Assembly: GCA_016219965.1 (NCBI GenBank)
Contig: JACRJM010000009.1
Location: 62,001-126,000, forward strand
Origin: Candidatus Schekmanbacteria bacterium
Lineage (GTDB): Bacteria; Schekmanbacteria; GWA2-38-11; J061
DNA length: 64,000 nucleotides
Direction of reading: 5' to 3'
Positions 6,579-60,874 of the stretch are shown in pieces. The notes under the pieces are model-generated. The model was not told the origin of the DNA and made no database searches. It was given only the letters and a program-made list of their open reading frames with translations. Numbering within the stretch: the first letter of the stretch is position 1; every line of letters begins with the position of its first letter. A program made the position numbers and the translations under genes.

Positions 6579-6606
6579 TTGACCACACATATGTGGGGAT
6601 TATATA
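6579..6606 (+). promoter_or_regulatory. Putative promoter with a palindrome, in front of the restriction-modification operon
   Basis: TTGACC at 6579-6584 and TATATA at 6601-6606 are 16 bp apart. The spacer contains the 10-bp palindrome CACATATGTG (6586-6595), which could be an operator, for example for self-control by the methyltransferase. This also argues that translation begins downstream, at 6630. Confidence 0.4.
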
Positions 6607-6629
6607 AAATGCGCGGGAGTAGAGTGAGT

Positions 6630-20666: not shown

Positions 20667-21437
20667 TTACTGCTTTTTCCGTTGCCAGATTGCCAATCCC
20701 AGAATACCAGCACCGAGCAGAATGATTGTCGTTGGTTCCGGTGTGGGACGTACATTTGTGACAACAATCTGCGGTTCACTTAATCCTGTGCCGTATTGGA
20801 AAAGTACAGAAGATATCTGATTTAGGGAAAAGGCTGAAGGGAGTCCTCCCAAAGTAAAAATCACTGAATTCTTGATTAACGGAGTTCCTCCGGTTACCTT
20901 TGCATTACCTGTTGTAATTATATCTCCCGCTGAAAGAATACCATAATTAAGACCATCCGGGTCCGCTGGAAAATCAAGGTAATTGCTACCATGTGAAGTA
21001 TCAAATCTGTCGCTGGGACCAAATAATCCGAGCCCTGAGCTTGATATTCCCTGCGTTGCCCCATTTGACATTGATAAACCATTTTTGTAAGCCCATTCGC
21101 TTCCAACATCTCCCCCAACAGGGACTGGAGGTGTAGTGTCGAAATAGTATGTGCTCCCCGAATCAATTATAGCAGATATCTTTGTTAATTCCGGATCTCC
21201 TGTGATACTGAAAAAAAGAGCAGTCAACACATCACTTGGGGCCAAAACATCATTGGTGCTGGTGTTAGTAAGTGTTACTTTGAGGTTTCCTCCAACAATA
21301 TCGAATGTTGCACTTGCGCTCAACAGACCGTCAGACCCGTTAAAAGTAATCGGTGTGGCAATTGCTTGAAAAGGAATAGTTACAAAAAAAATTAATATTC
21401 CAGTAATTAATGCTAATATGTATTTCGTTTTGCTCAT
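20667..21437 (-). CDS. PEP-CTERM surface protein, copy 1
   Basis: A 256-residue secreted protein with an N-terminal signal peptide (ILALITGILIFFVTIPFQAIA) and a C-terminal sorting signal: PEPTTIILLGAGILGLAIW followed by RKKQ. PEP-CTERM tails are processed by exosortase, which usually works with an extracellular polysaccharide locus. The mature part begins PITFNGSDGLLSASATFDIVGG and is beta-rich, clearly related to the second PEP-CTERM gene upstream (PIEF...SASASIDVIGG). GAGGGGGG lies close before the ATG. A sigma-54 promoter and two upstream dyads precede it. No exosortase gene is in the window. Confidence 0.9.
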   Translation of the reverse strand: MSKTKYILALITGILIFFVTIPFQAIATPITFNGSDGLLSASATFDIVGGNLKVTLTNTSTNDVLAPSDVLTALFFSITGDPELTKISAIIDSGSTYYFDTTPPVPVGGDVGSEWAYKNGLSMSNGATQGISSSGLGLFGPSDRFDTSHGSNYLDFPADPDGLNYGILSAGDIITTGNAKVTGGTPLIKNSVIFTLGGLPSAFSLNQISSVLFQYGTGLSEPQIVVTNVRPTPEPTTIILLGAGILGLAIWQRKKQ

Positions 21438-21475
21438 ACCCCCCTCACAAATTATATTTATACGTATATATATTA

Positions 21476-21492
21476 CGCAAATTTTGTTCCAA
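21476..21492 (-). promoter_or_regulatory. Sigma-54 (-24/-12) promoter of PEP-CTERM gene 1
   Basis: On the minus strand the sequence is TTGGAACAAAATTTGCG, with GG and GC separated by exactly 10 bp as required for RpoN. It differs from the TGGCAC-N5-TTGC consensus mainly at one base. Transcription would start near 21465, 28 bp before the start codon. Confidence 0.75.
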
Positions 21493-21600
21493 ATAACAAA
21501 ATAAGTAATAAAAAATATTATAACATATTGATTTGATTGACTTAATATGTGGCTATGATTTGTATAAAAAACTATATTTTTGTTATTAATAATAAAAAAG

Positions 21601-21617
21601 TGTTAAATTACCCGACA
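21601..21617. promoter_or_regulatory. Proximal activator dyad, PEP-CTERM gene 1
   Basis: TGTT-N9-GACA, part of a longer near-palindrome beginning AGTGTT and ending GACACT. It lies about 125 bp upstream of the sigma-54 promoter centre, a normal place for an enhancer-binding-protein site. Confidence 0.55.
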
Positions 21618-21665
21618 CTAATTTATTCTAAAAGATTGACTATCAATAAAATCAATGGGTTATAA

Positions 21666-21682
21666 TGTCAAAAAAACCGACA
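21666..21682. promoter_or_regulatory. Distal activator dyad, PEP-CTERM gene 1
   Basis: A perfect TGTC-N9-GACA dyad 65 bp beyond the proximal one. The block 21643-21682 that contains it matches the distal block of the other PEP-CTERM gene (22772-22811) at 33 of 40 positions. Confidence 0.6.
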
Positions 21683-21746
21683 CTTTGCAGCTAATATGGC
21701 TATAATAATATTGGGCAGGTTGGTTTTTAAACAGATATTTTAGCTT

Positions 21747-22559
21747 TTAATGTTTTCTGGATATATACCCTTTTGCTCCTAAACCAATTAAACCTAACAA
21801 AACCATTAACATTGTAGAAGGTTCAGGTACTGGTGGAATATATGTAGTTGAATAAAAATATATATCAGAGCCAAACTCGAATGTAATTCCGTCCTGGAAT
21901 ATATAGGAAAGGGTGCTGGATGCGCTTTCAGGATTGTTAAGGTCAACTCCCATTATATTAAGATTAGCTGTAACGGAATTACAGATTGCTCCCAGTCCTC
22001 CTAAATCAACAGCATTATTTGTTAATCCCCCCTGCGGTCCATCAAGATTTATAGTACCATCAAGGTTTGTTCCCGGAGGAATCATTAAAAAAGGAGTTGT
22101 ATGAGTTTGCATTGCAGAAAAAAAGTTTACATGTTCTATTGCGGGGTCTCCTGCAGGAAGTTGAGCAGTCAGTATTTCATCTCCATTATTGCCAAAGCCA
22201 TACTCTGAGGACACATCTGCTCCACCCGTCAATGATATTGCTCCACCTGTTTTTGTTTTAAAATTTTCAGTATAACTTTCCGGACTTATTAAAACTGTGC
22301 CGCCCGTTATTGACGCTGAATCAGGAAGGTCAAAGTATAGTGCCGTAAGAAGGCTATTTGCAGCATTCGTATCCGGAGCGCCCGTTGAAGTGTTGCTCAA
22401 GACTATAACCAACTGTCCACCAATTACATCAATACTCGCAGAAGCCGAACGTCCGCTTGCTTCACTAAAGCTGAATTCAATAGGAGTGGCAAAAGAGTTT
22501 GTTGCCGCAAAAATTATTATCAGTAATATTAACAAAATACTTATATTGAATTTTTTCAT
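21747..22559 (-). CDS. PEP-CTERM surface protein, copy 2
   Basis: A 270-residue paralogue of the downstream PEP-CTERM protein. It has a signal peptide (ISILLILLIIIFAATNSFA), a beta-rich mature part that begins PIEFSFSEASGRSASASID, an interior NTSTGAPDTNAANSLLTALYF segment aligning with NTSTNDVLAPSDVLTALFF in copy 1, and a C-terminal PEPSTMLMVLLGLIGLGAK plus basic tail. The first 100 residues align best between the two; the middles diverge. It would be exported, sorted by an exosortase and released or anchored at the surface, probably with exopolysaccharide. It has its own sigma-54 promoter and two dyads, so it is a separate transcription unit from copy 1. Confidence 0.9.
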   Translation of the reverse strand: MKKFNISILLILLIIIFAATNSFATPIEFSFSEASGRSASASIDVIGGQLVIVLSNTSTGAPDTNAANSLLTALYFDLPDSASITGGTVLISPESYTENFKTKTGGAISLTGGADVSSEYGFGNNGDEILTAQLPAGDPAIEHVNFFSAMQTHTTPFLMIPPGTNLDGTINLDGPQGGLTNNAVDLGGLGAICNSVTANLNIMGVDLNNPESASSTLSYIFQDGITFEFGSDIYFYSTTYIPPVPEPSTMLMVLLGLIGLGAKGYISRKH

Positions 22560-41636: not shown

Positions 41637-42989
41637 TTAGAGAAAAACCGAACCGATTCTTTTCATCCACATGATAATAAAAATAATTACAGAAATGGAA
41701 GCAAATAGCAGTGCAGTACGTTTTATTTTAGTTAGAGCGGGTATTCCGGTACAGAGAGCATCAGCTGCATAGAGCATAACAAAAGGCATTAGCCCCAGCC
41801 TGAACCTTGACATTCCGAATGTAATTGTGTGGATTGTTATTGTATAGAAAAACAGGCACAGGAAAAGGATCCTGATATGAGAAGAATTTGCTCTCTCGGT
41901 TCCGATTACCAATCCTGCAATGCCGAGAAGGACTATCGCCATGTAGGACAAAACATCGGTCCAGATGGTTATTTTGGCGATTGAGCTTTCGGGATTGCCG
42001 TAAAGTTTTAACTTGATGTGGCGCACAAGAAATGAGGTCGGAGAGAAAAGATCACATATTTTGGTCGGTATTTTTTTTAGAAAATCCAAAGGTGCATCAG
42101 CGATACATTTTAATGCAATCGCAGTTCTTTCTTTGTCCCTGTCTATGACATTCATTGACATATCGGGGTTTTCATAGGTCTTGTAACTTCTCCACATGTT
42201 GTAATCGTAATTAGCCGGACCTCCGGGCGTGTTACCGCTTATTAGGTTCACTCCCAGATTGGCGTCAACCAAACAGAACCTGTCGTATACGATATAGTTT
42301 CTGATAGTCCATGGAGAAATTAGAAGAAGAGCCGTTATAAGGGGCAGGCAAATGTTCCTCATCTGTTTCTTTTTTCTGAGCCCGGCAGAAAAATACATCC
42401 AGAGCATTATGACCGGATAGAAATAAAGGGAGAGGGGTTTGATATAAGCTGTTGCAGCAAGCATGATTCCGGAGATTATTGGCCACCGGATTGATTCCTC
42501 CTCTGTCGTTCTTAAAATGCAGTAAATGAACAGGTAGAAAAGGAATATATAGAGCGTCTCATTCCAGAAATAATGAGTGAAGGCAATAAGAGTAGGATTA
42601 AAGGAAACAATTGCGCAGGCTATTGCCCCGGTTTTCTCCGAAAAATATTTTTTCCCAATAAGGTATATAACATATGCTGACAGAGTGCTTAAAACTATCT
42701 GGGAAAGTTTAGCTGCAACCACCCAGTTGTTGAATAAAGATATATGCGCTGCAAGAAAGGATATGTAGCCTGGAGGCCAGAGAAGCCCGTTCCAGAGGAC
42801 ATCTTTTTGAATCCCAACTCCGTTTCCTGATGAAAGCCCCTCTGCAAGAGTCTTATAGAAGAGTTCATCGTTCACGAACGGTATATTTGAAAACCTGAGC
42901 AGAAGTATGAGTTTTAATATGAATGATACAATTAGAATTACGATTACATGGAAAGTCAGGTTCCTATCTTTATCAATGTTTGATTGCAT
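41637..42989 (-). CDS. GT39-like (GT-C) membrane glycosyltransferase
   Basis: A 450-residue integral membrane protein with about 11 predicted helices. The first external loop has PFVNDELFYKTLAEGLSSGNG, whose acidic pair is the catalytic site of polyprenyl-phosphate-sugar GT-C enzymes, and WNETLYIFLFYLFIYC is the second conserved segment of PMT/ArnT-like (GT39) proteins. It would transfer a sugar from a lipid-phosphate donor onto a lipid, glycan or protein on the outer face of the inner membrane. Its acceptor is unknown. It is in the same orientation as the next two genes upstream (42-base gap), so the three may be one operon with a sulfatase-like enzyme. Confidence 0.8.
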   Translation of the reverse strand: MQSNIDKDRNLTFHVIVILIVSFILKLILLLRFSNIPFVNDELFYKTLAEGLSSGNGVGIQKDVLWNGLLWPPGYISFLAAHISLFNNWVVAAKLSQIVLSTLSAYVIYLIGKKYFSEKTGAIACAIVSFNPTLIAFTHYFWNETLYIFLFYLFIYCILRTTEEESIRWPIISGIMLAATAYIKPLSLYFYPVIMLWMYFSAGLRKKKQMRNICLPLITALLLISPWTIRNYIVYDRFCLVDANLGVNLISGNTPGGPANYDYNMWRSYKTYENPDMSMNVIDRDKERTAIALKCIADAPLDFLKKIPTKICDLFSPTSFLVRHIKLKLYGNPESSIAKITIWTDVLSYMAIVLLGIAGLVIGTERANSSHIRILFLCLFFYTITIHTITFGMSRFRLGLMPFVMLYAADALCTGIPALTKIKRTALLFASISVIIFIIMWMKRIGSVFL

Positions 42990-43031: not shown

Positions 43032-44309
43032 CTATACTTTTGTGTTCTCTTCATCCATCAGCGCCCCTATGCAGAGAAGTGTTAATGTGAAACCTATATA
43101 ATTGTTGTGGAAAAATCTTGAAAAATAAAGAAAGAAAAAAAGCAGTACGGTATAGAAAATGACCATAGCTTTTACTGTGTTCTGCCTGCGCTGTAATGCT
43201 ATGAATATTAGAAAAAGCGGAGTACAGAAAATAAGCTGGAATATCCAGAAAGGAATATAATCCTGTTCACCGTATCCCGCAAAAACAAATAATTGTGCAA
43301 AACCGAATCCCGGGCTTCCTCCAAGCGGATAGCTTGAACCCTGTATCTTTCCTAAATTGAAATCAAAAACATCTTCTTTTAATGAATGTAAATCCCATAG
43401 AAGGTATGGACCAATTATTACAAGCACTAAAATTACAAAGGGGAGTATCTTTTTAAAAGTTCCTAACACTTTCTGGCTGAAGCTGGTTCCTCCGTTCCTG
43501 AGGTAAATGTAATGAATGAAAAAAGGTAAAAGAAGCCACGAGGTTGGCTTGACGGTAAATGCAAGTCCAAAAAAAAGTGACGCAGTCTGGATTTTGTTTC
43601 TGCGAAGAAAATAAATGATGCATAGAAGGAAGAAGAATACCAATATGTCATTCCGTCCAGGGATAATGTATTGAGAGAAGACGGGGTTTAATCCTATTGC
43701 TATGATTATCAGAAGACGGTTTGTGTATCTCTTTGAAAATGATAATGCCAGCCAAAGTGATAAAAGAAATGCAACGAGATAAATAAACCTCATATCAAAC
43801 CAGCCAAGGGTATTAATAGAAATATAGTAAAATGGAATCGGCAGCAGGAATGAGAGCGGAAGATAGGGATAATGGTAAATTATAGTACGGAGCCCGAAAG
43901 GATGGTTTTCATATAAATATTGTTCTTCAAGCTCCGTGCCGCGGTAATCTGATGTATATGGGTTCTTTCCCTCAATAAACATTTTCATGGCTTCTTTGGT
44001 ATGTATTACCCCTCCGTCGTGGGCATAGGACTTTACACCTAAGATATGCCGTTCATAGGTGCTGTAAAGTGTTGGTATTATAAGGACTGATAAAATCAAA
44101 GCGGCAATGATTACAAGTTTTGCACGATAAACAGACCTTTCAGAAATAGCTTTTTGAGATGTGACGATTGCAGGAATTATATCTGTCAGAATATAGCAGC
44201 CGGCTAAAAAAAGCATGAAAGGCTGTGTTACAAACTTTAATTTCTGAGGAATGAAATTGAGACAGGATACTGTGCCGATTGCAAGGAGCAGAGAGTCGAT
44301 TGATATCAA
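43032..44309 (-). CDS. GT87/DUF2029-like membrane glycosyltransferase
   Basis: A 425-residue membrane protein with about ten helices. The luminal loop VIHTKEAMKMFIEGKNPYTSDYRG and the later HYPYLPLSFLLPIPFYY are characteristic of DUF2029/GT87 enzymes, which in actinobacteria add mannose from polyprenyl-phosphate-mannose. The substrate here is unknown. The frame starts with TTG at 44309, preceded by AAGGG 8 bp upstream and only 12 bp after the stop of the sulfatase-like gene; no ATG lies near, so the unusual start is accepted. It is the middle gene of a probable three-gene unit. Confidence 0.75.
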   Translation of the reverse strand: MISIDSLLLAIGTVSCLNFIPQKLKFVTQPFMLFLAGCYILTDIIPAIVTSQKAISERSVYRAKLVIIAALILSVLIIPTLYSTYERHILGVKSYAHDGGVIHTKEAMKMFIEGKNPYTSDYRGTELEEQYLYENHPFGLRTIIYHYPYLPLSFLLPIPFYYISINTLGWFDMRFIYLVAFLLSLWLALSFSKRYTNRLLIIIAIGLNPVFSQYIIPGRNDILVFFFLLCIIYFLRRNKIQTASLFFGLAFTVKPTSWLLLPFFIHYIYLRNGGTSFSQKVLGTFKKILPFVILVLVIIGPYLLWDLHSLKEDVFDFNLGKIQGSSYPLGGSPGFGFAQLFVFAGYGEQDYIPFWIFQLIFCTPLFLIFIALQRRQNTVKAMVIFYTVLLFFFLYFSRFFHNNYIGFTLTLLCIGALMDEENTKV

Positions 44310-44321
44310 GAAGGCTTACCC

Positions 44322-45674
44322 TTATTTAATGTATCCAAGTAATCTGAGCTTCTCTATCCTTTCCTTTTCCATTTCTTCAACAAGGAGTGGTTTTTTTGCC
44401 AGTTTTTCTTTTGTACTTACTTCATGTTCAAGTATTTTGCGCATTTCTGCTGATAATATTTTCTTTTCATTAATGAGGTTTTTTGTTTCTAATGGGTCAT
44501 CTGCCATGTTGTAAAGTTCTTCCATGCCGTCTTTATAGTTAAGAATATATTGGTAATTATCAAGGATAATAGTCCTGAGATCAAGACCATCATATTTTCT
44601 GGTTTCGCAATAAACACTTTTGTCTTCCCATTTATTGCCTTTTCCTTCAAGTAAGGGGACAAGGCTTTTGCCTTCAATCCGAGACGCTGGATTTATTCCT
44701 GCAATTTCAAGAAGTGTGGGGAGAAGGTCTATGTGACTTACAACGGTATCAATCTTCTTTCCCTTTTCAAAGAGCGGGGGATATGAAATTATAAATGGGA
44801 CATGTATCAGTTCTCTGTAAACATTGTCAGCATGATACCATTTCCCGTGTTCCATGAATGATTCGCCATGATCACTTGTTATAACAATAACTGAATTTTC
44901 GAGTATCCCGTATTTTTCGAATTCCTTTAATAATTCACCGAATACATCGTCGCAGTGCCTTATTTCTCCGTCATAGAGAGCTTCTGATACTTCCTTCCCC
45001 ATGGGATCGCCCTCTACTTTGAACATTTCTTTGTATTTTTCCGGCGGATTGTACCTTCCTTTTATCCCGGGCTGGTGATCGGCATGGGCATCTATGTAAT
45101 GAACCCACATAAAGAATTTCTTGTCATGATTGTTTTCTAACCAGCTTATTGCTTTTTCATTTACACATTCCGCATTTTCCCAAAGGCATTCTTCATCATA
45201 ATAATCAAAACCCTGCGCAAACCCCTCTTTACGAATTAAATGCCCGTTTGTTGAAAACCCTGCAGTTGTGTATCCAGCGGATTTCATGAATTCCGGGAGT
45301 GTTTCAAAGTCATCGCTTAAAACTTCCTGGTAGATTATTTTCTTGCTTTCAATCTGGGCACGCACATTTCCATGTATAACGGGAAGAATAGAAGTGAACA
45401 TTGATATCATTGACGGCAATGTCCATGACGCATGGGAGTAACAGTTTTCAAAAAGCACGCCATTCTTTGCGATCCTGTCCACGTTAGGTGAAGTTTCCCT
45501 CCTGTATCCATAAGCCCCTATATGATCAGCCCTTGCTGCATCTATGGTTATGAGAATGATATTGAGATTAGTGTTTTTTTCGACCGGTTTTCTCATGCAT
45601 CCCAGACATGGAAGCAAAAGTAAAACAAAGGCCATATATACCGGTAAACATTTTCTTGATTTATATAATGTCAT
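44322..45674 (-). CDS. Sulfatase-like lipoprotein (alkaline phosphatase superfamily)
   Basis: A 450-residue enzyme with a lipoprotein signal (VLLLLPCLGC, Cys anchor), so it should act in the periplasm or at the surface. Metal ligands are visible: IILITIDAARADHIGAYGY at the start and VIVITSDHGESFMEHGKWYH later. The nucleophile region reads SHASWTLPSMISMFTS; the CxPxR sulfatase signature is absent, and a Ser or Thr nucleophile, as in phospho-/phosphoethanolamine-type members, is more likely. It could modify a surface glycan or lipid. It is divergent from the membrane protein at 45904 and resembles the enzyme at 48264. Confidence 0.82.
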   Translation of the reverse strand: MTLYKSRKCLPVYMAFVLLLLPCLGCMRKPVEKNTNLNIILITIDAARADHIGAYGYRRETSPNVDRIAKNGVLFENCYSHASWTLPSMISMFTSILPVIHGNVRAQIESKKIIYQEVLSDDFETLPEFMKSAGYTTAGFSTNGHLIRKEGFAQGFDYYDEECLWENAECVNEKAISWLENNHDKKFFMWVHYIDAHADHQPGIKGRYNPPEKYKEMFKVEGDPMGKEVSEALYDGEIRHCDDVFGELLKEFEKYGILENSVIVITSDHGESFMEHGKWYHADNVYRELIHVPFIISYPPLFEKGKKIDTVVSHIDLLPTLLEIAGINPASRIEGKSLVPLLEGKGNKWEDKSVYCETRKYDGLDLRTIILDNYQYILNYKDGMEELYNMADDPLETKNLINEKKILSAEMRKILEHEVSTKEKLAKKPLLVEEMEKERIEKLRLLGYIK

Positions 45675-45903
45675 AATCGCACCCTCAATAATCGTATTTG
45701 CTTATGCAAAGCTAACTATATATTATCATACGTCATACTTTCAACCCATTTCAATTGCTTTACATCTTTGAAAATTTTCTCTTTTCTTTGCCTGTAGTAA
45801 TTTTTTTTGTTATTCTGTTTAATTATATGCCGCTGATTAGATTCATTTTTCTAACTTGGAGAGAGAAGACTGATGATTGCTGTTTGTTCATAAAGGAATA
45901 CAA

Positions 45904-48261
45904 ATGATCAAAAAGAATACAACTTTTTTCTTTTTTTTAATTCTTCTCCTTGTTCACAGGGTTTTCCTGCTTCTTGCTAACTTCGATATCTTTATCCAGG
46001 ATGAGGAGCGATATAACGGCACCATAGCAATTGAAATGATTCGCGGACTCAAGATGCCTCTCTTCTTTTATCAGCATCAGCCCTATGCCCCAGGTGCGAT
46101 GATAATGGGAGTTCTTGCTGCTCCTTTTTACCTGCTCTTCGGCGAATCATATATGTCGTTAAAATATCTTGCTCTTGCTGTGACCGTACTTTTGTTCTCG
46201 TTCTGGTATTTCTTTGTAAGAAGGATTGCTGGTGAACAATGTGCATTATTATTCTCTCTTTTTTTTATTTTTGCGCCTCCAAATGCTATCAAGTATTCTG
46301 TTCTTGCCCTTGGGAACCATTATGAAAGCTGCCTGTTCACTATTGTAGTGATTTATCTGATGACAGTGGGTTTATATGAAAAAAACGGAGACAGGAATCC
46401 TGACCTTTTATTTATTATTTTGGCCGGAGTCATCAGTGGTTTTGCCACTTACTTTGTTTTAACCTTTATTGCGACGGTTGTTCTATGTCTTTTTTTCTGG
46501 TTTCTCAAAGACCGTCTTTTTTTTGCAAGAAAAGCCTTTGCAGCCTACGCATTGTCGTTCTGTGCCGGGTTTTTGCCATGGCTTTATAACACCATCAAAT
46601 ACGGGGCAATGAGCCTTAACTTCCATGGGACTCCAATATACCTTGCAGAGGCGGATGAGTCCATCTGGGCAAAAACAATAAGATATCTTACTACGGGGAT
46701 GTCCCTTTCCTTCGGATTTGAAGGGATCGGCTGGAGCAACATTGACAGCTTTCTCTATTACGCTGTTGTTATGGGTGCTGTTGTTTATTTCTTTTTCCGG
46801 TACCGCAGGGATGTCAAAAATCTTTTTATATGTTTATTCTCATTTAGACGTTCTGATAAAGAGGATAATGGGTTTCTTGATGGTAAAATGGTTCTTGCTT
46901 TTTTCCCTTTAGTATTTTCAGCCATATTCATTGCATCGGGCTTTAAAGTGCCTAAAAAGAAGTTTTTTGATGCTATGTTTTATAATCCTTTTGATACATA
47001 TTATTATCTTTCTTACCGGTATTTTGTCCCATTGTTTCCTTTTGCCTTTTTCTTTATGGCTCTCTTTATATGTTTTTTGTTAAGTGAAAAAAAGAAAACT
47101 ATACGAGTATGGTCTGGTTATTTTATTATATTGCTTATACTTGGCTTAACAGGAAACTCTTATTACAAGCTTGCTATAGAGAGAGAATGGTTCAAAGGAA
47201 GTCTTTATACCGGTTCTGACTATATGGTTCTTGGCAAAAAAATCACTGAGGTGTACGGTAACAATTTGCCGGATGTTTACAGGAAGCTGTCGGATATAGA
47301 TGAGGGCTACAAAGTTGCTGCATTCAGGGGAGCCGGTATAGCAATGGGGAATAAAGATGATGGACTTAAGGGAATAATTCCTCTGATGCAAGAATCTTCT
47401 GATACTGAGAAAAAATGGCTTATTCAGGGTTATTCAAATGGTCTTTTCGAACGAGCTAAAATAGATGTGGATACTCTTGATATAAAAGCAGGGAATAAAA
47501 AAATTGAGATTGATGATATTTTTAAAACTGTTCCGTCTTATTTATTGCCGGTTATCAAAAGGGAAATAGGGAAGATTTCATCCTATTCCTGCAATTTTAA
47601 AACAGAAAGTAAAATTAAGGCTTCAATAAAATTTCTTGATAGGGTGCATCAAAGATATGATGCTTCTTTTGAGGATCTTCACATCCATAACCCCCACTTT
47701 TCAAATGCTGATTTCTGGAGTAGTGTAACGGAAGATGTTAATCCAGTTACTGCGGGTTTTATTTATTGTGCTATTGGAAGAGACATGTCTTTTATCGGCT
47801 TTGAGTCGACTGCGACGTTTAATTCGTGGTTGGAAAAGACGGACCCGCTTTACAGGCGATATCTTATTGATGGTATAGCTGAAACAAGCGGTCCTTATTT
47901 TAAGCATGATTTTAGCAAAGTTCTTAAAACAGCATTATCTCTACCTGATGAATACAGTGAGAAATTTATTAGTTCGGCAGGAGAGGCTTTTTTTTGGGAA
48001 AACTGGGATAAGGTTGGAGATATTAAATCACTTCCTGGAACTGCTGTGGTTGCAGACAACCCGTATTTCTACCGGGGCATAGGCCGGGGAGCAGGCTATC
48101 TTCTCTGGTGGAACAGGCAGAAATCAGATGACATTATTTCCAGGATGGACGAAAAACAAAGGGAGGAGTTTCTTTCCGGCATGAGAGAAAGAATAGATGA
48201 AACTTTTGATATAACTATTCCAAGCTATTACAGGTATTTTAATCTGAGGATAGAGTACTGA
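45904..48261 (+). CDS. Large GT39-like membrane protein with repeated C-terminal domain
   Basis: About 785 residues. The N-terminal half has some 11 helices and the GT39-type first loop NFDIFIQDEERYNGTIAIEM, with acidic residues at the catalytic site, and QHQPYAPGAMIMG. The C-terminal 340 residues are soluble and contain three degenerate copies of a unit of about 50 residues, each with an R-G/A-x-G-like turn (FRGAGIAMG, YCAIGRDMSF, YRGIGRGAGYLLWW) and a helix ending LI.G or FLSG. I know of no such named domain. ATG 45904 with AAAGGA is chosen over an earlier TTG. A sulfatase-like gene follows after 2 bp, so the two are co-transcribed. Confidence 0.75.
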   Translation: MIKKNTTFFFFLILLLVHRVFLLLANFDIFIQDEERYNGTIAIEMIRGLKMPLFFYQHQPYAPGAMIMGVLAAPFYLLFGESYMSLKYLALAVTVLLFSFWYFFVRRIAGEQCALLFSLFFIFAPPNAIKYSVLALGNHYESCLFTIVVIYLMTVGLYEKNGDRNPDLLFIILAGVISGFATYFVLTFIATVVLCLFFWFLKDRLFFARKAFAAYALSFCAGFLPWLYNTIKYGAMSLNFHGTPIYLAEADESIWAKTIRYLTTGMSLSFGFEGIGWSNIDSFLYYAVVMGAVVYFFFRYRRDVKNLFICLFSFRRSDKEDNGFLDGKMVLAFFPLVFSAIFIASGFKVPKKKFFDAMFYNPFDTYYYLSYRYFVPLFPFAFFFMALFICFLLSEKKKTIRVWSGYFIILLILGLTGNSYYKLAIEREWFKGSLYTGSDYMVLGKKITEVYGNNLPDVYRKLSDIDEGYKVAAFRGAGIAMGNKDDGLKGIIPLMQESSDTEKKWLIQGYSNGLFERAKIDVDTLDIKAGNKKIEIDDIFKTVPSYLLPVIKREIGKISSYSCNFKTESKIKASIKFLDRVHQRYDASFEDLHIHNPHFSNADFWSSVTEDVNPVTAGFIYCAIGRDMSFIGFESTATFNSWLEKTDPLYRRYLIDGIAETSGPYFKHDFSKVLKTALSLPDEYSEKFISSAGEAFFWENWDKVGDIKSLPGTAVVADNPYFYRGIGRGAGYLLWWNRQKSDDIISRMDEKQREEFLSGMRERIDETFDITIPSYYRYFNLRIEY

Positions 48262-48263
48262 AA

Positions 48264-50315
48264 ATGAAGCGTTGTTTATTTATTTTATTTATTGCTGTTA
48301 TTCTCGTATCTGCAGGCGGATGCGGAAAAAAAAACATCAATGCAGAAAAAGATTACAATATAGTCCTTATTGTAGCTGATACCCTGAGGTCAGATTACAT
48401 CTCATGTTACGGGAATAGATGGATTAAAACGCCTTCAATTGATTCGATTGCAAAAGACGGGATTCTGTTTGAAAATGCAATTTCCCAGGCATCATGGACG
48501 CTCCCTTCACATGCATCTCTTATGACATCCAGATATCCTATTCAGCATGGCTGTTTGAGCTACAACAATCCTCTTTCTGAAAAAGAAACCACACTTGCTG
48601 AAGTTTTAAAGCAGGACAACTTTACCACAGGTGCTTTTATAAGCACTTTTCTTGTAAGCTCTAAATTTGGCTTCCAGCAGGGTTTTGACACATTTGACGA
48701 AAAACTTGATTCTGATTTTCAAAGACCAGTAACAGAATTCCATGCTGACAGTCTTAGGTGGATTGAAAAAAAGAAAAATGGAAAATTTTTCCTGTGGCTC
48801 CATTATTTTGAGCCTCACTATCCATATCTTCCGCATATTCCTTTTACTGATGATTATGAGAAGATTTTAAATAAAAAAGTGAAAGGTACTTTTGACCGCT
48901 CTCATGAATGGATAAAGGATACGTATAATAAGAAAAAAGAGGACATTTCAGAAGCTGATACAAACAGAATGAGGAGCCTCTATGCCGGAGAAATAAGCTA
49001 TCTGGATCGTTTTATTGGAGAAGTAATCTCCAAGCTAAAAGAGGAAGGGGTTTATGACAAGACTCTCATAATATTTACATCAGACCATGGAGAGATGCTG
49101 GGAGAACATCATCTTATAGAACACGGCGAAAGCCTTTACCAGGAAGAGATCCATGTGCCTCTCATTATAAAACTACCGGCAGATATGAAATACACACACG
49201 GAGCTCGTATAAACGGAATAGTAGAGCATGTTGATGTGATGCCTACTCTTCTTGACCTGCTGGGAGTGAAATCCAATATCAAGCTTGAGGGGAAAAGCCT
49301 CCGTTCATTAATTTTAGGGATTTCAGGGATTTCAGAAAATAATGCCATAGTAAAACCAATTGCCCATAGCGAGGTGCACAACTATAAAAGTCTGATATCT
49401 GGAAATTTGAAGCTGATAATGTCGTTACCAGTGCTTGATACTCCAATGCTCTTCGATATCAATAAGGACCCGGAAGAAAAAAATAATATTTATTATGAAG
49501 AGAAAGAAAAAGCCAAAGAAATGAAGAATGGGCTTCTGGACTGGGTAATGGCAATGAACAATCCTGCACCAGCAAAGACACGTCTTACAAGAGAAGAGGA
49601 AGATAAACTTAAAAGCCTCGGATATATTAATGCAGGTGTAAGCAGGACGCTTAATATAAGTGTCTATCCTCCTTCAGGACTAACTGCTGAAGTTCGCGAT
49701 GGGAATATTCTGCGTTATTTGTCAGGTGGTAAAATCCAGATGAAAGAGGAGAAATGGAATGGAACAGAAATCCAATTAACGCCTGATGGACATGGCAAAG
49801 AGGGAACAGTGGAGTTCTGGTTCAAACCAGCCTGGGAATGGAATAAGAGCGATAAAGTGAAGGTGTTTTCCTTAAATGCCGGCAAATCCTCTGTTATAAA
49901 TGTTGACAAGGTTGGGGAGGCACTTGATACAAATGAAGGGAAAGTTTACAGAGGTTCATTCCTCAGAGTTGGTGTAAGCAGTGAATCGGATAGGTTTGTA
50001 TACTATGATGTTAGCCGGTTATCTGACAATATTCCACACCATATACTTCTTACATGGAAAAATATATCAGCACAAGAAGGGGGAAGAATTTTACTTTTTA
50101 TTGACGGCACAAAAGATGAGTTTTCTCCGGAATTGAAATTTACTGCTCCACTGAATGAGGGAATAAACTCGATAACTTTTGGAGATGGAAATAAAAGAGA
50201 GAGTATGGGTAATTTAAAAATTTACAGAAACTTTTATGAATCGGGCTCCATAATTATGCAGGTGTACAGAAAAGCTTTAGAGTATGAAGAAACAACCCAT
50301 GAAACAGGAAAATAA
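48264..50315 (+). CDS. Sulfatase-like lipoprotein with C-terminal LamG-type domain
   Basis: A 683-residue exported enzyme. The signal ends LVSAGGC (lipid anchor). Residues 30-470 form the alkaline-phosphatase-superfamily domain: IVLIVADTLRSDYISCYGN, nucleophile region QASWTLPSHASLMTSRYP, and IIFTSDHGEMLGEHHLIEHG with ligands for two metals. The last 190 residues form a concanavalin-like (LamG) sandwich (GTVEFWFKPAWEWN, HHILLTWKN, ILLFIDGT), likely a carbohydrate-binding module. As in the 44322 enzyme, the CxPxR Cys is replaced by a Ser/Thr-Pro context. It lies between two membrane glycosyltransferase-like genes and probably edits or transfers groups on their product. Confidence 0.85.
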   Translation: MKRCLFILFIAVILVSAGGCGKKNINAEKDYNIVLIVADTLRSDYISCYGNRWIKTPSIDSIAKDGILFENAISQASWTLPSHASLMTSRYPIQHGCLSYNNPLSEKETTLAEVLKQDNFTTGAFISTFLVSSKFGFQQGFDTFDEKLDSDFQRPVTEFHADSLRWIEKKKNGKFFLWLHYFEPHYPYLPHIPFTDDYEKILNKKVKGTFDRSHEWIKDTYNKKKEDISEADTNRMRSLYAGEISYLDRFIGEVISKLKEEGVYDKTLIIFTSDHGEMLGEHHLIEHGESLYQEEIHVPLIIKLPADMKYTHGARINGIVEHVDVMPTLLDLLGVKSNIKLEGKSLRSLILGISGISENNAIVKPIAHSEVHNYKSLISGNLKLIMSLPVLDTPMLFDINKDPEEKNNIYYEEKEKAKEMKNGLLDWVMAMNNPAPAKTRLTREEEDKLKSLGYINAGVSRTLNISVYPPSGLTAEVRDGNILRYLSGGKIQMKEEKWNGTEIQLTPDGHGKEGTVEFWFKPAWEWNKSDKVKVFSLNAGKSSVINVDKVGEALDTNEGKVYRGSFLRVGVSSESDRFVYYDVSRLSDNIPHHILLTWKNISAQEGGRILLFIDGTKDEFSPELKFTAPLNEGINSITFGDGNKRESMGNLKIYRNFYESGSIIMQVYRKALEYEETTHETGK

Positions 50316-50318
50316 ATC

Positions 50319-51305
50319 ATGACGGAAATTTCCATTGTAATACCTACATATAACGCGTCTTTTTCCATAGAAGACTGCCTTAAGGCGATTTACGAAACTA
50401 CGGGAGTTGATTTTGAAGTCATAATAGTTGATGACCTTTCCACTGACAACACCATTGAGATAGTGAAGCAATTCCCGTGCAGACTCATAAAGCTTGAAGA
50501 AAAAAGCGGACCTTCTCTAGCGAGAAACATCGGAGCAGAGAATGCGAAGAGCGATATAATAATGTTTGTCGATTCAGACGCTGTCGTTGAAAATGGGGGG
50601 ATTGAGAGGCTGGTATCAGTTTTCAGAAAAAATCCTGATATAGCGTGCGTAAGCGGTGTATTTGACGTAAATCCGAATAAACTGAGTTTTTTCTCACGAT
50701 ACAGAGACAGGCAGGTTGCATACTGGCATTATTCAGCATGCGATGATGTTAGCATTTTTATCCTTACTGCAGGTGCTATAAGAAAGGATGTTTTTTTTGA
50801 AGTCGGTGGATTTGAAAGAAAATTCGGCGTAAAGGCGGATATAGAGGATTTTGAAATCGGTCACAGGATAGTCAGCAGAGGGCACAAGATGGTGGTTGAT
50901 AAGCAGATAAGGTTTTATCATTTTGAACACTCTTCACGGTTTACAAATCTCGTAAAAAAACTTTTCAAGAGGACGAGGCTCTGGATGCATCTTTTCTGGA
51001 AAAGAAAAAAGTTTGAAAAAAATTATGTCACTGCTGAAAGATCATATGCTGCTATATTTGCAGGATTGAGTTTTCTTTTCCTTGTTCTTGCCGCCATATC
51101 ATCAATATTCCTTATTCCTGCCGTGGTTTCATTTATCTTATTTGTTCTTCTGGATGCCGGATTTTACAGATTCCTGTTCAAAGACGGCGGTTTATTCTTT
51201 CTCATCTACGCGCTGGCAGTTCATTATTTTCTGACTATAGTCATATGTACAGGTGCATTTGTAGGTCTGAGCCAGGCACTTCTAGGATTAGAGGCCCAAA
51301 AGTGA
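50319..51305 (+). CDS. GT2 glycosyltransferase with C-terminal membrane helices
   Basis: A 328-residue GT-A enzyme. The nucleotide-sugar site is shown by SIVIPTYNASFSIEDCL and the DxD-type VDSDAVVENGG; the acceptor part has TAGAIRKDVFFEVGGFERKF and DIEDFEIGHRI, a typical ED-type catalytic base. Two or three membrane helices in the last 90 residues anchor it in the inner membrane, as in polyprenyl-phosphate glycosyltransferases. It starts 3 bp after the LamG sulfatase-like gene, and the next gene overlaps its stop by GTGA, so a tight operon is certain in layout. Confidence 0.9.
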   Translation: MTEISIVIPTYNASFSIEDCLKAIYETTGVDFEVIIVDDLSTDNTIEIVKQFPCRLIKLEEKSGPSLARNIGAENAKSDIIMFVDSDAVVENGGIERLVSVFRKNPDIACVSGVFDVNPNKLSFFSRYRDRQVAYWHYSACDDVSIFILTAGAIRKDVFFEVGGFERKFGVKADIEDFEIGHRIVSRGHKMVVDKQIRFYHFEHSSRFTNLVKKLFKRTRLWMHLFWKRKKFEKNYVTAERSYAAIFAGLSFLFLVLAAISSIFLIPAVVSFILFVLLDAGFYRFLFKDGGLFFLIYALAVHYFLTIVICTGAFVGLSQALLGLEAQK

Positions 51306-53188
51306 CGTCAATCAGAAACAGAATTGCTCTTGGCATTATCATCCTTCAGCAGTTCTTTTTTGTGACAGCTTATCTTCCATTCAAAGAGTGGTTCTCAAAG
51401 ACCCTCATATATTCCGACGATTTTATAATACATTACGGCGGCACCCTTATTCAGAATAGGATTATAGACACTCAGGGTTTTAGCACGATATGGGGATATC
51501 TTCCCTTTTTCCGCGCCGGGACTGTAACGCTTACACTTCTCTCAATCGACAGCAAGGCATGGGGGATATTTGCAAGACTATTGTCAGGACTGATTTCATA
51601 TGAAGCGGGGTTTAAGCTGTTCTTCGTAATATCAGTTCTGCTAATCCCTGTTGCGCTCTATTACAGCGCAAAGAATTTCGGCTGTGATGAAAGGGAATCT
51701 CTTGCAGCTACTGTGCTTGGAACGCTTTATCTTCAGACGTCAATATGTGTTGATTTCATTAAATGGGGTACTGTTTCATTCGTATTTGCTTCTTATCTGT
51801 CATTGTTTGCTGCTTCGATTCTCCATTCATATTTTGAAAAAAGGGAGATCAGGAGACTTTTTTATTTCACGGTAATCTGTATCGTGACTTTCTGGATACA
51901 TATTCTTGCTGCCGTTGCAGTTGCTATTCCTGTTTTTTTTCTGTTGCTTTCAAGGATTAATCTTTCTTCATCAAAGGAGCTCACCTTATCATTATTTGTA
52001 TCTTTTGGTGTAATACTCTTAATGACTTATCCTATCTATCATCCTCTTCTTCTTTTCTTTGATCTTAGAACCAATTTCTTCCCATGGGACCCATATTTTA
52101 CAACCAGTCCATGGGAACCGGTTAAAACTTATATTTTCCAATATTCAATTTTTAATGACTATGCCGGCATCCCTTTTAAAAAGAACACATTGTTTGATCT
52201 GCTACTTGTTCTATTAACTTTTTACGGTTTCCGCGAATGGTTTAAAACCGGGAAAAAAAGTATTCTCTTCTGCCTTGCAGGAGCATTCGCCTGTTTTTTT
52301 CTTCTTGGGTTCTATGGCTCGTTCAAGGAATTTACAAAACGCCTCACTCCTCTGCGCTTTATCATAACAATGAACGTATTCCTTTCCCTTCCTGCTGCGG
52401 TAGGTTTAATTTCATTTTACGAGCTCATTAATAAAGGGAAAGGTAAAGTTGTTAAAAACATGACATGGATTGTTTCATTAATACTTCTGACAGTTTTTCT
52501 TTTTACTCCCTATTATCATTTTTATGTTCGTAAGGATTTCCGTCTTGCCACTGAAGAGCCATCTGGCATTAAACCGCTGGTTGAGATGATCAAAAATAAC
52601 ACAACGGCGAAAGGGCGCATCCTCTGTGAAAACTCGGATTGGGAAAGCGGACATATGTATTTTGGCGGACATTTTGCAGTGCTTTTCCCGGATTATACTG
52701 GCCGTGAGTTTGTAGGCAGTGAATATTCAACGGATCCAATGAAGGACAGTTTTGTAAGTTTTTACGATGGATTTCTTTTTCATGAGAAATTTGAATGGTA
52801 TGACAGAGGAAAAATCGGGGAGTATTGCGACCTCTATAATATAAAATGGATTATATGTTGGTCTCCTGCTGCTGTTCGGCTCGTTGAATCTTTTCCCGAT
52901 TATATTGGAAAAAAGACACAGAACGGCATTTTCAGGCTTTATGAAGTTAAAAGGCAGGGGGATTATTTCCTGAAAGGTTCTGGAGAAATTGACGCTTCAA
53001 TAAATAATCTTAAACTTTCAAATCTAAAGCCGGATGCAGGCGAGGTTGTAATATCATATCATTGGATTAAGACATTAAAAACAGATCCGCCTGTAGAAAT
53101 GAAAGAAACACGTTATTTGGACGACCCTGTCGGGTTTGTAAGGCTTATTAATCCCCCTGCGGATGTTACAATTTATAACGGGTATTAG
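51302..53188 (+). CDS. Large polytopic membrane protein, GT-C glycosyltransferase-like
   Basis: About 628 residues with some 12 membrane helices in the first 450, then a soluble C-terminal domain. The first loop IYSDDFIIHYGGTLIQ contains an acidic pair like that of GT-C enzymes, and the soluble end has AKGRILCENSDWESGHMYFGGHFAVLFPDYTGREFVG, which recalls the STT3/AglB-like periplasmic portion of membrane glycosyltransferases, without a clear WWD motif. The start GTG at 51302 overlaps the previous stop and has AGAGG 8 bp upstream; the frame can be read further up but only inside the previous gene. It converges on an FkbM gene 14 bp after its stop. Confidence 0.72.
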   Translation: MTSIRNRIALGIIILQQFFFVTAYLPFKEWFSKTLIYSDDFIIHYGGTLIQNRIIDTQGFSTIWGYLPFFRAGTVTLTLLSIDSKAWGIFARLLSGLISYEAGFKLFFVISVLLIPVALYYSAKNFGCDERESLAATVLGTLYLQTSICVDFIKWGTVSFVFASYLSLFAASILHSYFEKREIRRLFYFTVICIVTFWIHILAAVAVAIPVFFLLLSRINLSSSKELTLSLFVSFGVILLMTYPIYHPLLLFFDLRTNFFPWDPYFTTSPWEPVKTYIFQYSIFNDYAGIPFKKNTLFDLLLVLLTFYGFREWFKTGKKSILFCLAGAFACFFLLGFYGSFKEFTKRLTPLRFIITMNVFLSLPAAVGLISFYELINKGKGKVVKNMTWIVSLILLTVFLFTPYYHFYVRKDFRLATEEPSGIKPLVEMIKNNTTAKGRILCENSDWESGHMYFGGHFAVLFPDYTGREFVGSEYSTDPMKDSFVSFYDGFLFHEKFEWYDRGKIGEYCDLYNIKWIICWSPAAVRLVESFPDYIGKKTQNGIFRLYEVKRQGDYFLKGSGEIDASINNLKLSNLKPDAGEVVISYHWIKTLKTDPPVEMKETRYLDDPVGFVRLINPPADVTIYNGY

Positions 53189-57888: not shown

Positions 57889-59394
57889 ATGAAAACTCTT
57901 TTTATATCAAAGGGACAGGAAACATTAGCAGTAGAATACCTCGCTTCAGTGCTGAAATCGAAAGGGCATACTGTTAAGCTCCTGTTTGATCCCGGCATCG
58001 ACGATAACATGGGATTCTGGGATATTTCGCTTCTGAGAAAGATTAATCCCAATAACCTCTTCATTGAAGAAATGATATCCTTTGCTCCTGATCTTGTCGC
58101 ATTATCTTGTCCTCTCAATATGTATCCCTTTGTAAGAAACTCTGCGCGCATGGTTAAAGAGCATCTGGGTGATGTCCCGGTTCTTGTAGGGGGCGGCCAT
58201 CCTACGACGGCTCCGGAGTATGTCCTTTCAGATCCGAATATAGATATGGTCTGTATCGGCGAGGGTGAAGAGCCAATAGCAGATTTGGCGCAGAGGATTG
58301 AAGATAAAAAGAGTTATAATGACGTAGAAAACCTATGGGTGAAAACTGCGAGCGGTATTGTAAAAAATCCTATCAGACCCCTTTTGCAGGATCTGGATTC
58401 TCTGCCTTTCCCTGACAGGGAGATTTTTTATTCTTATGGCTGCTTTGCCGGAAATCTCTATTTTATAGCAGGCAGAGGATGTCCTTTCCAGTGCACCTAT
58501 TGCTGTCAGCACACATTCAAGGAGATATACAAGGGAAAAGGAAAGTATATCAGGCTACGCAGTGTTGATAATATCATGAAAGAACTTGAATATGGTGTAA
58601 GAAGGTACAATGTGAAACACATCCATTCAGAGGATGATACATTTGCTTTTGACCATGACTGGACTAAAGAATTCTGCAGGGAATATAAGAAAAGGATACA
58701 TGTTCCGTTTTACTGCCATGTAAGACCTGGAACATTAAATGAAGGAGTTCTGGCTGACCTTGCTGACGCAGGTTGTGTAGGGGTTTTCTTCGGGGTTGAT
58801 TGCGGCAATTATGAAATGAGAAGGGATATATTGAAACGCCCTGTAACAGATGATGTCATTATTGAACAGGCAAAGCTTGTTAAAAAAGCAGGAATAAAGA
58901 TTTCATGCTCATCCATGTTCGGACTTCCCGGAGAGACTCCCGGGCAGATGTATGAGACATTCAATATGATAAAAGGGATTGAAAGCGATTTTGCCTATGC
59001 CACAATCTATTATCCGTTTTATGGGACGGAACTCTTCCAGTACGCAGTTGACAACGGCTATCTTGATGAAAAAACTGTTGCATTGATAAAGGATGGGAAA
59101 GGATCTCTCTATGGTGAGCCTCTTATAAAGACTGAATACAAGGACACGGCAATGCTTCTTAAGAATATGCTGCCGTCTTATATGAGGTTTAAAGGATTGA
59201 GGTTCATTTTTGATTTAATCTTAAAAAGCAAATCATGTTCTCTGGCAAAATTAATTAATCTGTTTTTCACACCTTTTTCTTATGCCTCGATCGGAAAATT
59301 GAAAAGAAAAGAAATGGCTTCTGTATTCTTGAAGTTTATTGCCTATAAATTGAGAATTATTTCTCTCCATAAGCTGGCGGCAGGAAAAGAATAA
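57889..59394 (+). CDS. Cobalamin-binding radical SAM protein, tandem copy A
   Basis: A 501-residue enzyme. The N-terminal B12-binding layout is TLFISKGQETLAVEYLASVL, LVALSCPLNMYPFVRNSARM, VLVGGGHPTTAPEYVLSD, IDMVCIGEGEEP. The radical SAM motif is CPFQCTYC followed directly by another Cys and QH (AGRGCPFQCTYCCQH). Later, YCHVRPGTLNEGVLADLADAG and SSMFGLPGETPGQMYET are typical of the class. The C-terminal 120 residues are basic with a hydrophobic helix. It is about 40 percent identical by eye to the next gene, so the two arose by duplication. Likely reactions are methylation or rearrangement of an unactivated carbon. Confidence 0.9.
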   Translation: MKTLFISKGQETLAVEYLASVLKSKGHTVKLLFDPGIDDNMGFWDISLLRKINPNNLFIEEMISFAPDLVALSCPLNMYPFVRNSARMVKEHLGDVPVLVGGGHPTTAPEYVLSDPNIDMVCIGEGEEPIADLAQRIEDKKSYNDVENLWVKTASGIVKNPIRPLLQDLDSLPFPDREIFYSYGCFAGNLYFIAGRGCPFQCTYCCQHTFKEIYKGKGKYIRLRSVDNIMKELEYGVRRYNVKHIHSEDDTFAFDHDWTKEFCREYKKRIHVPFYCHVRPGTLNEGVLADLADAGCVGVFFGVDCGNYEMRRDILKRPVTDDVIIEQAKLVKKAGIKISCSSMFGLPGETPGQMYETFNMIKGIESDFAYATIYYPFYGTELFQYAVDNGYLDEKTVALIKDGKGSLYGEPLIKTEYKDTAMLLKNMLPSYMRFKGLRFIFDLILKSKSCSLAKLINLFFTPFSYASIGKLKRKEMASVFLKFIAYKLRIISLHKLAAGKE

Positions 59395-59398
59395 CCGT

Positions 59399-60874
59399 AT
59401 GAGGATACTTTTCTTTGCAACCGGACAGGAACTGCTTGGCATCGAATACCTTTCGGCAGCACTTAAAAGGGACGGACATGAAGTTGAGCTTGCCTTTGAT
59501 CCGGGTCTCGGTGATTTTCTTGGATTCATAGATATTCCACTGTTGAAGAATCTGACAAATGAGAACTGGTACCTTGAAAAAGTCAGGTCCTTCAAACCTG
59601 ATCTTGTAGCATTCAGCTGTCTTACAAATCTCTATTCCTTTGCCCGTGATAAAGCTAGGCTCATAAAAAAACATTTTAATATTCCAGCTGTAATCGGCGG
59701 TATCCACCCTACTATTCTCCCCGAGTATGTTCTTGAGAATCCTGATTTTGACATGCTCTGCATTGGAGAAGGGGATGAGGCCATGCCGGAACTTGTCCGG
59801 AAGATGGAGAAAGGAGAAGATTATTTCGACACCCGCAATTTTTGGTTCAGGCGCAACGGGGAGGTTGTAAAAAATCCGGTGCGGCCTCTTATACAAGACC
59901 TTGATTCACTTCCTTTCGCAGACAGAAGTCTTTTTTATAAGTATGGATGTTTCACCGGGACGCTCTATTTTATTTCCGGCAGGGGATGCCCATTTACATG
60001 TAGTTACTGCTGTCATCATTTTCTTCAGAAGAAGTACAGCGGGCTTGGAAAGTACGTGCGTAAAAGGAGTGTTGATAACGTCATCAAAGAAATAAAGGAA
60101 TGCCTTGGCAGGTACAAAGTAAAATCTCTTTATTCCATGGATGATCTTTTTACCATCAATACGGCCTGGATAGAGGAATTCACCGATAAGTACAGAAAAA
60201 TTTCGAACTTGCCAATTTACTGCCATGTAAGACCGGGAACACTTAACAGGGAGATTGCTTCAGCACTTGCAAAAGCAAACTGCACGTCTGTTTTCTTAGG
60301 TATAGATTCAGGAAGCCCCTTTATCAGGACAAACATAATGAACAGAAATATAAAGGATGAAGACATATATTCGAATGCCGCACTTCTGCAGGAATTCGGA
60401 ATAAAGATAACGACATCTCTTATATTCTGCATGCCTGACGAAACTGACAGCCAGATGATAGAGTCCATTGAAATGGTAAGAAAGCTCAAGACTGATTATC
60501 TTTATACTTATATATATTATCCTTTCCCAAATACGGAATCATACAATTACTGTGTTGAAAAAGGCCTTGTAGATGCTGATACAATGGAAAAAGTAAAAAG
60601 AGGAGAAGGCTCGTTCCACAAGAAGCCGCTCATAAAATCTGAATATGCTGAACTTGCACAGGTATTGAAAAACATGGCACCCCTTTATGTGAAGTTCCCT
60701 TTTCTTAAACCTCTCATATGGTTTATTATGAAGAGACGCTGGATCAGGGCGAGTGAAATAGTTTTCTTTCTCACTGCTCCTATTACGTATGCGCACTTTG
60801 GGCGGGCAAAAATAAAGGAATTTTTTTCTCTTATGAGAATGGCTTTTCTGGCAAGATTAAGGACGAGGGGATGA
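59399..60874 (+). CDS. Cobalamin-binding radical SAM protein, tandem copy B
   Basis: A 491-residue paralogue of the preceding gene. The same landmarks occur: LFFATGQELLGIEYLSAALK, AVIGGIHPTILPEYVLEN, FDMLCIGEGDEAMPEL, SGRGCPFTCSYCCHH, YCHVRPGTLN and LIFCMPDETDSQMIES. Both copies keep all cluster Cys residues and the extra Cys-x-His after the motif, so both should be active, probably on successive sites or intermediates of one product. The start is 4 bp beyond the stop of copy A. Its stop overlaps the start of the following methyltransferase gene by 4 bp. Confidence 0.9.
   Translation: MRILFFATGQELLGIEYLSAALKRDGHEVELAFDPGLGDFLGFIDIPLLKNLTNENWYLEKVRSFKPDLVAFSCLTNLYSFARDKARLIKKHFNIPAVIGGIHPTILPEYVLENPDFDMLCIGEGDEAMPELVRKMEKGEDYFDTRNFWFRRNGEVVKNPVRPLIQDLDSLPFADRSLFYKYGCFTGTLYFISGRGCPFTCSYCCHHFLQKKYSGLGKYVRKRSVDNVIKEIKECLGRYKVKSLYSMDDLFTINTAWIEEFTDKYRKISNLPIYCHVRPGTLNREIASALAKANCTSVFLGIDSGSPFIRTNIMNRNIKDEDIYSNAALLQEFGIKITTSLIFCMPDETDSQMIESIEMVRKLKTDYLYTYIYYPFPNTESYNYCVEKGLVDADTMEKVKRGEGSFHKKPLIKSEYAELAQVLKNMAPLYVKFPFLKPLIWFIMKRRWIRASEIVFFLTAPITYAHFGRAKIKEFFSLMRMAFLARLRTRG

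Follow-up and report, generated by a model that had tools for sequence, protein, structure and literature searches.

Two threonine-type genes of sulfatase fold

The window analysed here is a stretch of 64,000 nucleotides from Candidatus Schekmanbacteria bacterium (GenBank assembly GCA_016219965.1, contig JACRJM010000009.1, positions 62,001 to 126,000 of the forward strand). Two of its open reading frames (ORFs), designated A and B, encode proteins that match the family PF00884 and have threonine at the formylglycine (FGly) position of sulfatases. The two genes and the residues considered below are located as follows (positions are those of the window).

44322..45674, minus strand: ORF A, 450 amino acids (aa), Thr-type S1-fold protein with PF00884 and an SGSH_C-like C-terminal subdomain
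45420..45422, minus strand: T85 of ORF A, predicted nucleophile, at the FGly position in sulfatase alignments
45084..45101, minus strand: H192-x-x-D195-x-H197 of ORF A, proposed second metal site together with H281 (metal binding predicted)
44868..44873, minus strand: D268-H269 of ORF A, candidate metal ligands in the Asp-His-Gly (DHG) region
44832..44834, minus strand: H281 of ORF A, +12 from H269
44331..44339, minus strand: LGY tail of ORF A, residues 446-448, low confidence in the model
48264..50315, plus strand: ORF B, 683 aa, Thr-type S1-fold probable lipoprotein with a C-terminal LamG-like domain
48498..48500, plus strand: T79 of ORF B, predicted nucleophile in sulfatase alignments
48801..48818, plus strand: H180-x-x-E183-x-H185 of ORF B, with Glu where Asp is usual
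49083..49088, plus strand: D274-H275 of ORF B, candidate metal ligands
49122..49124, plus strand: H287 of ORF B, the +12 His, opposite Lys in three of three sulfatase alignments
49617..49625, plus strand: LGY motif of ORF B, residues 452-454, closing the S1-like domain ahead of the added domain
49641..50312 (limits approximate), plus strand: LamG-like C-terminal domain of ORF B, with Laminin_G_3 matched by two of four alignment members

Both frames are open and score 175.1 (A) and 180.8 (B) bits against PF00884, for which the cut-off is 25; the cut-off of PF01663 is passed by both as well, PF00884 being the better match, and the Pfam match to SGSH_C corresponds to the S1-type C-terminal subdomain. 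The nucleophile region reads HASWTLPSM in A and QASWTLPSH in B, the motif [CS]xPxR has zero occurrences in either protein, and when HMMER aligned each ORF with three solved sulfatases, the threonine faced S or A of [SA]-x-P-x-R in all six cases. Since this motif is absent, an ordinary Cys-type sulfatase is ruled out. The cysteine of A nearest to T85, C78, was rejected as a candidate: it precedes T85 by seven residues, is Ala in B and lies outside the catalytic column. The candidate metal ligands are present as D45, D268 and H269 in A and as D39, D274 and H275 in B, while H281 of A stands opposite the sulfatase Lys in one of three alignments and is displaced by gaps in the other two. Thus two claims of an earlier note on this DNA, that ASWTLPS replaces CxPxR and that the metal ligands are kept, are borne out in both proteins. 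Its description of both as lipoproteins is probable for B, which matches a PROSITE-style lipobox pattern at C20, and is not confirmed for A, which fails this strict pattern.

The AlphaFold2 model of A (mean predicted local distance difference test, pLDDT, 89.2; predicted template modelling score 0.88) has its best structural match in the S1 sulfatase 6hr5, an S1_25 module, with Z 42.4 and a root-mean-square deviation of 2.2 over 348 residues; BT1918 of subfamily S1_46 (7oz8) gives Z 38.8 and phosphonate monoesterases give Z from 35.1 to 36.4 (2vqr 35.7, 4uph 36.4). The model of B has a mean pLDDT of only 70.5 because its added domain is unmodelled (block means 28-42), and its catalytic part returns a similar list of matches (6hr5, Z 41.6). 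No EptA or LtaS structure appears among the structural matches listed for A and B, which is no evidence of unlikeness. The modelled fold is therefore that of sulfatases, with altered active-site residues.

Coordinated replacement of active-site residues

PF00884 relatives were taken from the same genome, from 20 other genomes and from 80 named distant loci and were profile-aligned; 157 of the 171 surveyed frames hold both the nucleophile and the DHG regions, and these were counted. The nucleophile column has Thr in 134 frames, Cys in 20, Ser in 2 and Ala in 1. Thr-type frames have the +12 His (column of H281) in 131 of 134 cases, Asp or Glu at position 195 in 125, H192 in 125, H197 in all 134 and the LGY motif in 125, where it lies 15 residues or fewer from the frame end 90 times and further in 35 times. 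The corresponding values for the 20 Cys-type frames are one for the H281-column His, two for D/E195 and zero for LGY; 19 of them have His in the H197 column and 15 have Asn in the DHG region. Arg at +4 is found in none of the 134 Thr-type frames versus all 20 of the Cys type. Thus the Thr replacement is coordinated in relatives with the +12 His, with HxxDxH and with the LGY motif.

The composition of the sample bears on how these numbers should be read. The distant loci, which are the best 80 of at least 570 confirmed stretches, supply 93 of the 134 Thr-type and 5 of the 20 Cys-type frames, and the patterns used to find them contained DHGE..EH or HxxDxH, so that these two features are there partly by construction; Thr, the +12 His and LGY were absent from the patterns. 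Loci L001-L091 were recruited mainly through PF00884 matches in 21 genomes and not through a motif. Their 57 frames comprise 41 with Thr, 15 with Cys and one with Ala; the Thr frames have the His in 39 cases, D/E195 in 38 and LGY in 38 (of the three that miss it, two are truncated at a contig end), and LGY occurs in none of the 15 Cys frames. T85 is invariant across 81 aligned sequences, a set picked as Thr-type. In a FastTree phylogeny of 91 sequences all 20 Cys proteins form one Thr-free group with support of 0.994. Judging by record titles, the hosts of the Thr-type clade include Acidobacteriota, Planctomycetota, Deltaproteobacteria, Aminicenantes, Eisenbacteria, Omnitrophota and others. 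A degenerate member, with Ser for Thr and Asn for His ligands, was met on an Acidobacteriaceae contig (L140:2829-4607), where it adjoins an intact Thr-type gene.

The reach of the signature was delimited by a second sample of 15 plus 4 genomes, G011 and G009 having been used before; frames already met were dropped and 40 new frames were aligned. The profile puts T in the nucleophile column of 13 of them, four of which are Cys-type CTAGR proteins shifted by one. Of the nine true Thr frames only L230, itself cut by a contig end, has the full signature, and L253 (314 aa) combines E195 and the +12 His with Asn in place of H192 and is without the tail. LGY lies 15 residues or fewer from the end in none of the 13 T-column frames. 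All 15 frames with Cys in the column and both regions present have the Arg, and none has LGY. The idea that LGY and the full signature are traits of all Thr members of PF00884 is thereby ruled out; the second sample held few members of the Thr-type clade described here, and the signature therefore marks that clade and not every Thr member of the family.

The LGY tail and added domains

The motif LxxLGY closes the S1-like unit, standing either near the C-terminus or ahead of an added domain; in all three proteins scanned (paralog L006, L138 and L115) the part that follows LGY is TPR. C-terminal LGY was registered in 91 of 168 profile-positive genes versus 3 of the 797 others called in the loci, and of these three one is PF01663-like (L012) and one looks PEP-CTERM-like. 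Some PF01663 proteins have an LGY tail (L191, L206, L208, L209, L215, L218 and L222) and many others are without it. Four neighbouring PF01663 genes without C-terminal LGY form a run on contig C10 of the host genome (L217). The invariance of LGY in alignments A2 and A6 proves nothing, because both were picked to contain it. In the models the block-mean pLDDT for the helix that precedes LGY is 82-85 in B and 62-68 in A, and the LGY blocks have 64 and 62. A possible role of the tail is closure of the active site or docking to a partner.

The earlier note had given one of the two proteins a LamG-like sugar-binding domain, which would be the C-terminal part of B. Two of the four members of the alignment of this part match Laminin_G_3 (best E 1.1e-9), which speaks for it, while the sequence of B gives no match to Pfam in this part at E 0.1, and a profile of the domain gave zero matches to solved structures.

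Neighbouring genes and pairing with membrane proteins

Both genes stand among genes for membrane proteins and glycosyltransferases.

41637..42989, minus strand: PMT_2 (GT-C) protein, 450 aa, PMT_2 at 5e-16
43032..44309, minus strand: polytopic protein, 425 aa, weakly similar to ALG3/GT87, 12 bp downstream of A
45877..48261, plus strand: polytopic protein, 794 aa, ending 2 bp before B, from a family with PMT_2 (GT-C) matches
50319..51305, plus strand: GT2 glycosyltransferase, 3 bp after B
51245..53188, plus strand: protein of 647 aa without a Pfam match, its translation hydrophobic in the N-terminal part

The similarity of the 43032-44309 protein to ALG3 (8e-4) and GT87 (0.0022) is under the cut-off in both cases. 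In the family of the 45877 protein 7 of 10 scanned members match PMT_2, the window member itself being among those that do not. Compared by hhalign with the 41637 protein, the 45877 family reached a probability of 15.1 and the 43032 family of 0.2. The earlier note had tied both ORFs to GT-C genes; this stands for the 45877 family and for the 41637 protein, is weak for the 43032 protein and finds no Pfam match in the 51245 protein.

The gene at 43032 occurs once each in the host genome (G000) and in the relatives G002 and G003 (3 of 21 genomes), each time as the gene immediately following one of the Thr type. In the tree the Thr-type partners from G002 and G003 do not cluster with A, though support for the position of A itself is weak. 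Orthologs of B in the same two relatives follow a polytopic gene of 773 aa, for which phmmer detected no similarity to the 45877 protein. Relative G001 keeps the order of B, GT2 and the 51245 gene up to the contig end, with 73% identity in GT2. The 45877 family has eight matches in the host genome, and two of them adjoin Thr-type genes.

In the loci of G000-G003, which represent the order of the host, a polytopic neighbour on the same strand and within 100 bp was found for 13 of 26 profile-positive genes versus 9 of 121 others (Fisher p 1.6e-6). Twelve of 38 profile-positive genes were left out of this count at contig ends, and the 13 positives include a dead paralog described below. The genes had been re-detected and the length limit for a polytopic neighbour lowered from 380 to 250 aa; the neighbours of all 13 positives have at least 420 aa. 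An earlier count, for which the set was incomplete, had 5 of 18 versus 12 of 120 (p 0.048). At least six hydrophobic stretches were registered in the distant loci for 6 of 47 operon-partner candidates versus 9 of 278 more distant genes. Thus, the proposed pairing with membrane glycosyltransferases is clear within the order as a pairing with polytopic proteins and weak outside it. Among 29 polytopic proteins scanned PMT_2 was matched in 7 and TPR_2 in 8, and carriers of TPR are found among the neighbours in L064, L066 and L067, for example. TPR recurs, in polytopic neighbours and in Thr-type proteins after LGY.

Paralogs and maturation

The host genome has 12 PF00884 matches: nine are Thr-type, one is a dead paralog (L009), two score better with PF01663, and none is Cys-type. 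L009 (G000:C15:32494-33573) is an open frame that reads NALSS at the nucleophile region and SPYGE at the DHG region; two His of HxxDxH are lost, and the gene still lies between polytopic genes. It is possibly a regulatory pseudoenzyme. Four matches to PF03781, a broad family of the FGE type, and matches to TIGR03942 that all fall below the cut-off make a maturase in this genome possible. In relative G001, which is 97% complete, PF00884 is matched 19 times and PF03781 not once, a radical-SAM maturase not having been sought there. The absence of Cys or Ser at the site of A and B, together with the absence of PF03781 matches from G001, lends good support, by inference, to the earlier expectation that such proteins would need no sulfatase maturation.

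Proposed chemistry and alternatives

PMC11677397 describes two zinc sites in ENPP phosphodiesterases, the first formed by the nucleophile together with a His and two Asp and the second by one Asp and a pair of His, while sulfatases hold a single Ca by three Asp and one Asn. The set of the Thr type (D45, D268, H269 and T85; H197, H281 and D195 in A) equals the two-zinc inventory so described for ENPP and is unlike the Ca site of sulfatases. For MCR-1, PMC5031297 gives E246, T285, D465 and H466 with H395 and H478. Distances computed from these residue numbers (39 from the first ligand to Thr, 110 from Thr to His, 180 from Thr to Asp, and +12 from the Asp-His pair to the last His) are similar to those in A (40, 112, 183 and +12) and in B (40, 106, 195 and +12). 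A second metal is thus predicted from the sequences to be held by H197, H281 and D195.

One can assume that metal 1, bound in A by D45, D268 and H269, would activate Thr85, whose alkoxide would attack the phosphorus of a phosphodiester, and that the second metal, standing in place of the sulfatase Lys, would stabilise the leaving group. The resulting phospho-Thr intermediate could be resolved by water, as in a phosphodiesterase, or by a hydroxyl of a glycan or lipid, as in a phosphotransferase. The GT-C and GT2 partner genes suggest, as the substrate, a surface or lipid-linked glycan, which would be assembled outside the cytoplasmic membrane. Probably, then, A and B are membrane-tethered extracytoplasmic phosphodiesterases or phosphotransferases with a Thr nucleophile and glycosyltransferase partners, and not sulfatases. 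The suggestion of the earlier note that they may be phosphotransferases or phosphohydrolases appears to gain weight from the concerted replacement of further residues in the active site.

Several observations weigh against this assignment. At position 195 the usual Asp is replaced in B by Glu (E183), and the nearest solved structures of both ORFs are FGly sulfatases and FGly phosphonate monoesterases. In the second sample seven of the nine true Thr frames are without the signature, and the H281 column has His also in three of the 15 Cys-type frames and in both Ser-type frames, so that this His alone proves nothing. Finally, the 80 distant loci show a weak pairing with polytopic genes (6 of 86 versus 13 of 494, p 0.048).

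This last weakness also speaks for a rather unlikely alternative, in which A and B are phospho-enzymes with a housekeeping or scavenging role, for instance a periplasmic phosphodiesterase, and the glycosyltransferase neighbours are chance members of a glycan island. It is favoured further by the 13 of 26 Thr-type genes of this order that are without a polytopic neighbour, and by the family matches of the 34 operon-partner candidates scanned in the distant loci (TPR_2 7, PF01663 3, PMT_2 3, a beta-barrel family 2). However, the excess of polytopic neighbours over other genes of the same loci, overlaps of 4 to 8 bp with several neighbours and the recurrent pairing of the 43032 and 45877 families argue against chance. 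That A and B are non-catalytic paralogs regulating or scaffolding glycan synthesis is improbable: paralog L009 lost Thr, Asp-His and two His and remains between polytopic genes, and the LGY tail could serve as a docking element, but A and B retain all candidate catalytic residues, with Glu for one Asp in B. Hardly credible is a sulfatase, or an enzyme of other sulfate esters, using Thr directly without FGly, to which the S1 folds nearest to A and the SGSH_C match would lend themselves, since the +4 Arg and, in aligned cases, the +12 Lys are replaced along with Cys, and oxidation of Thr would yield a ketone and not FGly, according to PMC5066984.

The preferred assignment of A and B to phosphoryl transfer has a practical side. 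Genes like these, with Pfam "Sulfatase" matches, would be counted as capacity to use sulfated polysaccharides; if the clade handles phosphate, those counts are wrong and its members become testable as surface-glycan modifying enzymes.

Other genes in the window

Restriction-modification is represented by a pair of genes at 6579-9064, an N6_N4 DNA methylase and a CfrBI-type endonuclease, and a family-B DNA polymerase with an exonuclease domain is encoded at 18395-20614 of this bacterial window. Two proteins at 20667-22559 have no Pfam match; both have PEP-CTERM-like C-terminal ends, which would point to an exosortase system. At 57889-60874, beside glycan genes, lie two adjacent genes that are similar in sequence by eye, the first encoding a B12-binding radical SAM protein.

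Comparison with known systems

S1 sulfatases (6hr5, 7oz8) have in common with A and B the fold, PF00884, the first Asp ligand and the His of the H197 column. They differ in having Cys or Ser for Thr, Arg at +4, Lys some 12 residues past D-[NH]-G in aligned cases, mostly Asn in the DHG region, and no LGY. Phosphonate monoester hydrolases and phosphodiesterases (2vqr, 2w8s, 4uph) share the fold with A, and the S1_0 hydrolases perform phospho chemistry on the S1 scaffold with an FGly nucleophile, as stated in PMC5066984; against this FGly of the described enzymes, A and B have Thr and a different second-site set.

Enzymes of the EptA/MCR/LptA group, judged by MCR-1, share with A and B the Thr nucleophile, the Asp-His pair, the +12 His, a further His and similar spacing, a likeness established solely by the clade alignment and by spacing relative to the published MCR-1 residue numbers. 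In that source the first ligand of MCR-1 is Glu, while A and B have Asp. The EptA/MCR/LptA family has a multi-pass membrane part; unlike it, the models of A and B place only 30-37 residues with one helix ahead of the S1-like domain. To the curated EptA family NF028537 of NCBIfam both proteins match partially, with 44.9 (A) and 46.8 (B) bits against a cut-off of 500. A and B thus fail the tests for FGly sulfatases and for curated EptA, and may nevertheless work in an EptA-like way. With ENPP/PF01663 proteins they share the ligand inventory for two zinc ions, the passed PF01663 cut-off and, for some of those proteins, the LGY tail; they differ in the SGSH_C subdomain and the better PF00884 match.

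Thr members of PF00884 have already been noted in print. We recognised no literature on this Thr-type clade, the coupled residue switch or the LGY tail in a search mostly outside subscription journals, and A and B apparently belong to a large, widespread and uncharacterised group. The combination of the S1 fold, the Thr/two-His ligand set and the LGY tail sets them apart as one variant of a familiar type of protein. More tentatively, and short of what we would call probable, the whole clade might be pictured as very widespread extracytoplasmic Thr-dependent two-metal enzymes of phosphoryl transfer on a sulfatase fold. These would be readily mistaken for sulfatases and, in concert with GT-C partners, would decorate surface glycans or trim them; their conserved LGY tail, shared with some PF01663 phosphodiesterases, would close the active site or serve in docking to a partner.

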